A DNA stretch of 46,566 nucleotides, from positions 1-46,566 of IMG/VR virus record IMGVR_UViG_3300022602_000162; one strand, given 5' to 3'. Below the pieces are notes generated by a model, which was given only the letters and a program-made list of their open reading frames with translations, was not told the DNA's origin and ran no database searches. Shown here one piece after another: positions 26,469 through 35,626 of this stretch (within the stretch, counting starts at the first letter, position 1; each line of letters opens with the position of its first letter). Both the position numbers and the translations under genes were made by a program. The stretch is from a virus.

Positions 26469-26519
26469 AAAAAAATCCCCAACATGACCGGGAGCGAATC
26501 GGATTTATCATGTTGGGGA
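26469..26519 (-). terminator. Terminator carrying an anti-Shine-Dalgarno loop (hairpin copy A)
   Basis: On the minus strand a 12-bp stem (TCCCCAACATGA and complement) encloses an asymmetric TAAAT bulge, a CCG/CGG stem and the nine-base loop ATTCGCTCC, and is followed by seven T. It ends the AAA ATPase transcript. The loop is complementary to the GGAGCGAA ribosome-binding site used by neighbouring early genes. Confidence 0.85.
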
Positions 26520-26529
26520 CCAACTGACT

Positions 26530-26555
26530 GCCTAGTGGGAGCGAATCACATCGGC
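26530..26555 (-). promoter_or_regulatory. Anti-Shine-Dalgarno RNA hairpin (copy C)
   Basis: Minus strand: GCC/GGC outer stem, small internal loop, GTG/CAC stem, loop ATTCGCTCC. It lies in the 3' UTR of the AAA ATPase gene, just 5' of copy A. Confidence 0.6.
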
Positions 26556-26614
26556 GTCTGTCTGCCGGAGCTGTTCTAGTATAGTAGTGCCCCGGCCTTA
26601 CTGTATGCTAGCCC

Positions 26615-35251: not shown

Positions 35252-35276
35252 AAAAAGAAAGGCCCCTAGGGACCTT
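35252..35276 (-). terminator. Terminator of the ncRNA locus
   Basis: AAGGTCCC / GGGGCCTT stem (one G-U) with a tight loop, followed on the minus strand by TTTCTTTTT. Confidence 0.85.
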
Positions 35277-35278
35277 CC

Positions 35279-35312
35279 CCAAAACTAGCGGGAGCGAATC
35301 GCGTCATTTTGG
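35279..35312 (-). promoter_or_regulatory. Anti-Shine-Dalgarno RNA hairpin (copy B)
   Basis: Minus strand: CCAAAA/TTTTGG outer stem, internal loop, GCG/CGC stem, loop ATTCGCTCC. It sits directly before the ncRNA terminator. Confidence 0.7.
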
Positions 35313-35597
35313 TAACTACAAATTAGATTGGGCGGGCAGAGCATGCTCCTCGTTTAATGCCCAGCTCATCAGCCGGCACCCTGTAACCGTACAGTTAGAA
35401 AAGAACTAAAGGAATTCCGGACTACTTGCCCTATACCGTCTATAGAGCTAGTGCCTTCATCATTACCGCCTACCATCTCCGCCGTTGCACGAAGCCTTCT
35501 TGCCCTAGATACCAGGTACCCGTCGGTACGCTTCCATCTCTCTAGGCGCCTAACGGTGTAGGTAACCTTTAATGCTTTTCTAACTGTTCATGTGCTT

Positions 35598-35626
35598 ATT
35601 ATAGCACATGAACTAGAACCTGTCAA
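35598..35626 (-). promoter_or_regulatory. Promoter of the ncRNA, with operator-like dyad
   Basis: TTGACA, 17 bp, TATAAT. A perfect 10-bp inverted repeat (35586-35595 / 35604-35613) flanks the -10. Confidence 0.92.

Follow-up and report, generated by a model that had tools for sequence, protein, structure and literature searches.

We describe, in a large lake-water phage, an RNA that is with high confidence structured, non-coding and apparently trans-acting. It belongs to a family outside Rfam that occurs in many uncultured large phages and has strong covariation behind it; comparison of sequences establishes the family, its fold, its non-coding nature and its genomic context, as well as the complementarity between a hairpin at the 3′ end of this copy and the Shine-Dalgarno (SD) sequences of early genes. 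Our preferred reading, to which we would assign a probability of about 0.55, is that of a stably folded early RNA acting in trans, probably as a ribonucleoprotein (RNP) scaffold or decoy for a protein of translation or stable-RNA metabolism. The stretch analyzed, 46,566 nucleotides at full length (the window), represents part of a jumbo-phage-like genome, and its UvsW-type helicase is nearest (~50% identity) to those of Sinorhizobium phage Phosso, Agrobacterium phage Atu_ph07 and Pseudomonas phage PA5oct.

The locus and its dyad promoter

On the minus strand of the window, a predicted transcript of ~338 nt without a gene lies between a sigma-70 promoter overlapped by a dyad and an intrinsic terminator. 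Its features are as follows.

35598-35626, minus strand: sigma-70 consensus promoter of the RNA gene, TTGACA-N17-TATAAT (12/12 matches)
35586-35613, no strand: perfect, operator-like 11-bp dyad, GTTCATGTGCT-6 nt-AGCACATGAAC (inverted-repeat search)
35392-35586, minus strand: conserved structured RNA core, ~195 nt (covariance model match, stable fold)
35566-35586, minus strand: P1 5′ strand (CAGUUAGAAAAG, CA internal loop, UUAAAGG), pairing with 35412-35392 (fold, inner-pair covariation)
35463-35565, minus strand: arm A (P2; UUAC/GUAA, CUAC/GUAG, CCGUU/GGCGG), enclosing P3 and the P4 region (covariation)
35502-35549, minus strand: P3 hairpin, apical stem 35529-35526/35519-35516, loop CGACGG 35525-35520 (compensatory changes)
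35419-35455, minus strand: arm B (P5) hairpin, apical loop GACGG 35440-35436 (apical stem covaries)
35392-35412, minus strand: P1 3′ strand, CCUUUAG UU CUUUUCUAACUG (fold, duplex energies)
35330-35381, minus strand: second small module, GGGUG[hairpin]AUUAAACGA[hairpin]CGCCC, then AATCTAATT (sequence likeness; lower confidence)
35279-35312, minus strand: anti-SD hairpin, GCG-AUUCGCUCC-CGC inside CCAAAA/UUUUGG, loop 35299-35291
35253-35278, minus strand: intrinsic terminator, GAAGGUCCC-UAGG-GGGCCUUUC and U-rich tail

A first-pass annotation, made from the window alone, had proposed that a consensus promoter, a perfect operator-like dyad and a strong terminator bracket a stretch without a credible gene, and each of these elements holds up. 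The promoter matches the sigma-70 consensus at 12 of 12 positions over 35626-35598 (TTGACA 35626-35621, 17-nt spacer, TATAAT 35603-35598), with a predicted transcription start at ~35591; the 11-bp arms of the dyad (35586-35596 and 35603-35613) lie over the -10 and form the sole inverted repeat of at least 10 bp within 60 nt across 34.6-36.3 kb; and the terminator shows a stem plus a U-rich tail at 35278-35253. The next gene has its own promoter (35212), beyond the terminator. Between 27 and 42 kb, the minus strand carries 21 promoters with at least 11 of 12 matches, that of the RNA among them, and 53 at the looser threshold of 9/12, against 24 in shuffled sequence. Whereas the other promoters of this early array lead to an SD and an ATG, the RNA-gene promoter leads to neither.

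A dyad of 10 to 11 bp over the -10 is rare: across the phage loci examined, only 11 of 1313 distinct sigma-70 promoters have one, and nine of these 11 drive this RNA. Two dyad arm sequences occur, both perfectly symmetric, the second (GTCTATGTGCT/AGCACATAGAC, in L013 and L116) retaining the symmetry. From the sequence, it may fairly be inferred that a dedicated dimeric regulator would act at the dyad. Further dyad promoters lead, in L116, to a 68-aa open reading frame that directly precedes the RNA and, in L151, to a leader and small open reading frame. An RNA-like leader with GAGTTTGGAGACTCTGCCT lies upstream of the core in L151 (13352-13480), L072 and L152, the L151 copy standing behind the same dyad promoter.

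A conserved core outside Rfam

The first loci were collected via two neighboring proteins, and about 12 distinct contigs among them carry the RNA in changing gene neighborhoods. A DNA pattern drawn from these contigs matched 112 stretches in viral contigs, and both sources were pooled to align about 80 distinct members; the 80 distinct members of the family all lie on uncultivated phage contigs. Their matched lengths range from 170 to 268 nt, and the large contigs in which the RNA was matched carry a single copy each (20/20). In the window, a covariance model matches 35407-35576 with 130 bits (E 3e-35), the window copy having belonged to the seed of the model that gave this score. Model R1, for which 27 sequences of types A and B were given a hand-set structure, recovers subtypes outside its training set at E values of 1e-9 to 1e-20. 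The RNA was not detected in G001, G003, G005, G006 and G026, in which a relative of the neighboring protein is present; its absence from several such contigs indicates that the gene is accessory and dispensable.

By these sequence searches, the family is absent from Rfam, in agreement with the earlier remark that its size and layout match no nameable family. At the curated cut-offs of Rfam 15, about 12 further loci, like the window copy, returned tRNAs only; none of GOLLD, ROOL, tmRNA, RNase P, 6S and the group I introns reached its cut-off. Permissive searches gave only noise for the window copy, no match for L144, and for L113 only neighboring tRNA-like matches and twister-P3 at an E value of 2.4. 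A resemblance to group I introns, RNase P and tmRNA was also considered by eye and has no Rfam support. Members of six sequence types had no true homolog by blastn among 50,697 phage records; a weak match to LR745206 was not confirmed by the model. A model search of five isolated jumbo phages, Phosso, Atu_ph07, PA5oct, Vibrio phage 2.275 and GAP32, yielded just a meaningless 11-bit match, and the pattern found 20 matches in 84,980 bacterial and archaeal genomes (257 billion bases), none of them a member according to the model. No description of this RNA was found in the open-access literature.

Sequence comparison demonstrates a fold in which a long P1 closes a three-way junction with two arms: arm A is formed by P2 and runs into a multiloop that holds P3 and the variable P4, and P5 makes up arm B. 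P3 (CGACGG/UGACGG) and P5 (NGACGN) have near-identical apical loops, and the junction strands UAGG, CAUGAA and GYGG are conserved. Over 80 distinct rows, 95.9% of the cells are paired; compensatory changes occur in 22 of 32 pairs (642 cells versus 184 in shuffled alignments), and the covariation score of 0.64 falls to 0.19 on shuffling and to at most 0.11 on sliding. In a ranking by background-corrected mutual information, positions 1 to 17 are all proposed pairs (17/17), a ranking that leans towards the fold because the alignment was fitted to the structure. Given the effect size and the sliding control, the fold is nevertheless secure. The strongest covarying pairs suit a nested fold, no pseudoknot stood out, and the minimum-energy fold of the window copy agrees with that of the family.

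The individual helices differ in what supports them. The four apical pairs of P3 show compensatory changes, and P2 pairs occur in the family as UA/AU, CG/GC/AU/UA, GC/AU and GC/CG/UG/UA; P2 pairs UUAC/GUAA are invariant, so that covariation offers no proof of these. The outer pairing of P1 outlasts complete sequence turnover, its strands being unrelated between subtypes: the median duplex energy of P1 strands is -14.2 kcal/mol with their own partners versus -4.6 kcal/mol with swapped partners, in a test that mostly covers pairs outside the modeled ones. Part of the apparent conservation was imposed by the search pattern, GGUUACC..UAGG..GACGG (P3), and only the ~12 members found via a neighboring protein are free of this bias; nearly all of these have the P3 GACGG, L049 being the exception. 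In arm B, which is outside the search pattern, GACG is present in 74 of 77 members. Kissing between the two GACG loops was rejected on inspection, as the loops are not self-complementary.

The annotation had described the stretch as dense with hairpins and as a self-contained locus of about 340 nt. The first statement applies to the 216-nt stretch that holds the core, with a folding z of -3.3 and none of 200 shuffles as stable, but not to the full 341 nt, which are not unusually stable (z -1.0). As to the second, the bracketing by promoter and terminator stands, but the conserved unit comprises only ~195 nt, the 3′ ~140 nt being lineage specific.

Genomic settings and competing explanations

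Members of the family occur in two main settings. About half have their own promoter, 35 of the 80 distinct members having one at most 75 nt upstream, and many others lie inside tRNA operons. In solo copies, the -10 is placed for a predicted start at the foot of P1. A tRNA follows within 250 nt in 33/80 members; 28 of 81 have at least three tRNAs within 3 kb on the same strand, 41 of 81 have none, and every tRNA counted within 3 kb (421/421) is on the strand of the RNA. Array copies sit among up to 26 tRNAs. boxA antitermination leaders belong to rrn operons. An rrn-like boxA, GTTCTTTAAMAATT, is found upstream of the tRNA arrays (L104, L166, L147, L140, L067, L113 and others), directly ahead of the first tRNA or of the RNA, with 16 occurrences on the tRNA/RNA strand and 0 on the opposite strand. 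By analogy, this placement suggests rrn-like antitermination of untranslated operons. As in rrn-type leaders, the motif comes just before the operons of array members; in contrast to these leaders, the operons here are phage tRNA operons, and none was seen before solo copies.

Several explanations other than a trans-acting RNA have to be weighed against these data. That the locus is a protein-coding gene or a chance sequence has a practically negligible likelihood: short open reading frames exist in it, as in any DNA, but covariation is present, and a conserved reading frame among homologs, which the annotation had named as grounds for abandoning its own proposal, was sought across the family and none stays open, the member lengths spanning all three classes modulo 3. 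The structured, non-coding interpretation first put forward is thus upheld by the covariation among homologs. It is also very unlikely that the RNA acts in cis on the next gene, as a leader or a riboswitch. A few members do precede a gene without an obvious promoter between, but in 25/80 members the consensus promoter of the next gene lies -18 to +89 nt from the core end, its -35 sometimes within the RNA gene, and tRNAs follow in the 33 members counted above. As the gene that follows is often served by an independent promoter, the RNA is not its leader. Moreover, the downstream genes differ between members, the RNA holds no 5′ UTR position ahead of a conserved gene class across the family, and the window copy terminates ahead of the next gene's own promoter. 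Improbable, if less so, is a role as a processing or spacer element that organizes the maturation of neighboring phage tRNAs, with P1 joining the upstream CCA end and the downstream start. P1 indeed starts at the (A)CCA of the upstream tRNA in five members (L113, L147, L063, L140 and L067), and its 3′ strand reaches into the first bases of the next tRNA in L067 and L161, which, with the frequent downstream tRNAs, speaks for such a role; against it stand the 41 members that have no tRNA within 3 kb and the window copy, which owns a promoter and a terminator.

The remaining 3′ ~140 nt of the window transcript hold a ~50-nt module, which is followed by one anti-SD hairpin and then by the terminator. 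The module is recognizable in L148/L138, L002, L013 and L151, and in an energy calculation it is not stable alone. That an anti-SD hairpin precedes the terminator had been noted before and is confirmed: the loop AUUCGCUCC, exposed on a 3-bp stem, exactly complements GGAGCGAA, the SD of the early genes, of which the minus strand has nine, together with 19 GGAGCG. The main job of the locus might accordingly be to bind GGAGCGAA of early mRNAs via this hairpin and shut off their translation. This explanation draws on the exact complementarity and on the recurrence of the same loop, with compensatory stems, as tandem hairpins in many related phages, but we regard it as unlikely, as the hairpin is absent downstream of the core in all of the other members checked (37/37). 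Because of this absence, the hairpin explains the tail of the window copy and not the family, and the 3′ tail is a lineage-specific fusion.

The anti-SD RNA is a finding in its own right. Its loop occurs twice more in the window, in tandem hairpins where the early array ends (26475-26560, minus strand), and such tandem hairpins are present in ~150 stretches of viral contigs (103 and 50 for two spacings), with an invariant 9-nt loop, variable but complementary 3-bp stems and a second hairpin that is often a terminator. Judged from these sequences, they look like a small RNA for early shut-off. Tandem anti-SD hairpins were also seen in L003, L087, L101, L106, L129, L152, L161, L168 and others.

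Other elements were observed in the contigs. A second conserved structured RNA-like element (GGATAGGGTCAAGTGCGATCCTGTAG...ACGAAAC...) lies downstream of the core in L005 (~890-1030), L109, L060, L013 and L081. L004 (6725-6795), L015 and L081 contain an element, GTCCCGGGAATCC...CTGAGTTCGCAACTCAG...GGGACGCCA, that resembles a tRNA but has a very short D arm; changes in its T stem are compensated, and ARAGORN does not call it. A repeated CTACATCGCYTGGATACTTCCC...GGCACTAGGTCC, possibly a small RNA, follows the cores of array copies by ~100-250 nt (L144, L102, L077), and a short hairpin, GGCATTCAGGTAG..CCTGATGTAAGYCCAATCTAATT, stands ahead of promoters or ribosome-binding sites in L068, L072, L087, L049, L015 and L030; the AATCTAATT end of this hairpin element also closes the second module of the window copy.

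Possible function and comparison with known phage RNAs

Under the preferred reading of a trans-acting scaffold or decoy, the host sigma-70 polymerase would make the RNA early, either from its own promoter, here under the operator-like dyad, or within phage tRNA operons. In the latter, where the RNA ends flush with neighboring tRNAs, tRNA processing would release it. The genes next to the RNA are not constant among members, and the company of tRNAs and boxA places it in the sphere of stable RNA and translation. The likeness of the two loops and the conservation of the junction suggest a protein ligand; the GACG(G) loops and the junction may be presented to a host or phage protein of translation or stable-RNA metabolism, a protein-binding role that is a guess from the architecture. 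In the window phage, the 3′ hairpin with its SD complement is a lineage-specific addition that could target early mRNAs. A more far-reaching version, which we put forward tentatively and hold to be possible rather than probable, is that of a new phage RNA machine, a compact RNP or RNA-only device made with phage tRNAs in boxA-antiterminated operons that might retune the host translation or tRNA machinery and that is here fused to an anti-SD hairpin, which would couple it to early-mRNA shut-off.

Phage T4 stable RNAs C and D lie in a phage tRNA cluster and have no known function; the present RNA would resemble them in setting and probable stability, which makes them a lead only. Closer in niche are GOLLD, a structured RNA without a known function that phages carry near tRNA islands and that is sometimes tRNA linked, and ROOL, a phage and prophage RNA near tRNA islands without a known protein partner (PMC12286853). 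The location in phage tRNA islands is shared by 28 of 81 members. GOLLD, however, often exceeds 800 nt and has another fold, and ROOL has ~660 nt with pseudoknots, whereas the core here has ~195 nt, lacking the several hundred nucleotides and multiple pseudoknots of both RNAs, and the members searched have no Rfam match. That the RNA oligomerizes via its loops into an RNA-only assembly like those of GOLLD and ROOL is therefore rather unlikely: the same phage tRNA-island niche (PMC12286853), the conserved loops and the occasional linkage to tRNAs would agree with it, but the RNA has at most one-third of their size, no match to them in Rfam, and GACG(G) loops that are unable to pair mutually. 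Sharing with GOLLD and ROOL a niche but not sequence, size or fold, it represents a new family, which joins them among the RNAs associated with phage tRNA islands. Direct predictions follow from the family model and from the rules of context (dyad promoter or boxA-tRNA operon), and since ~195 nt suits routine pull-down, probing and structure work, the role of tRNA-island RNAs becomes more testable.
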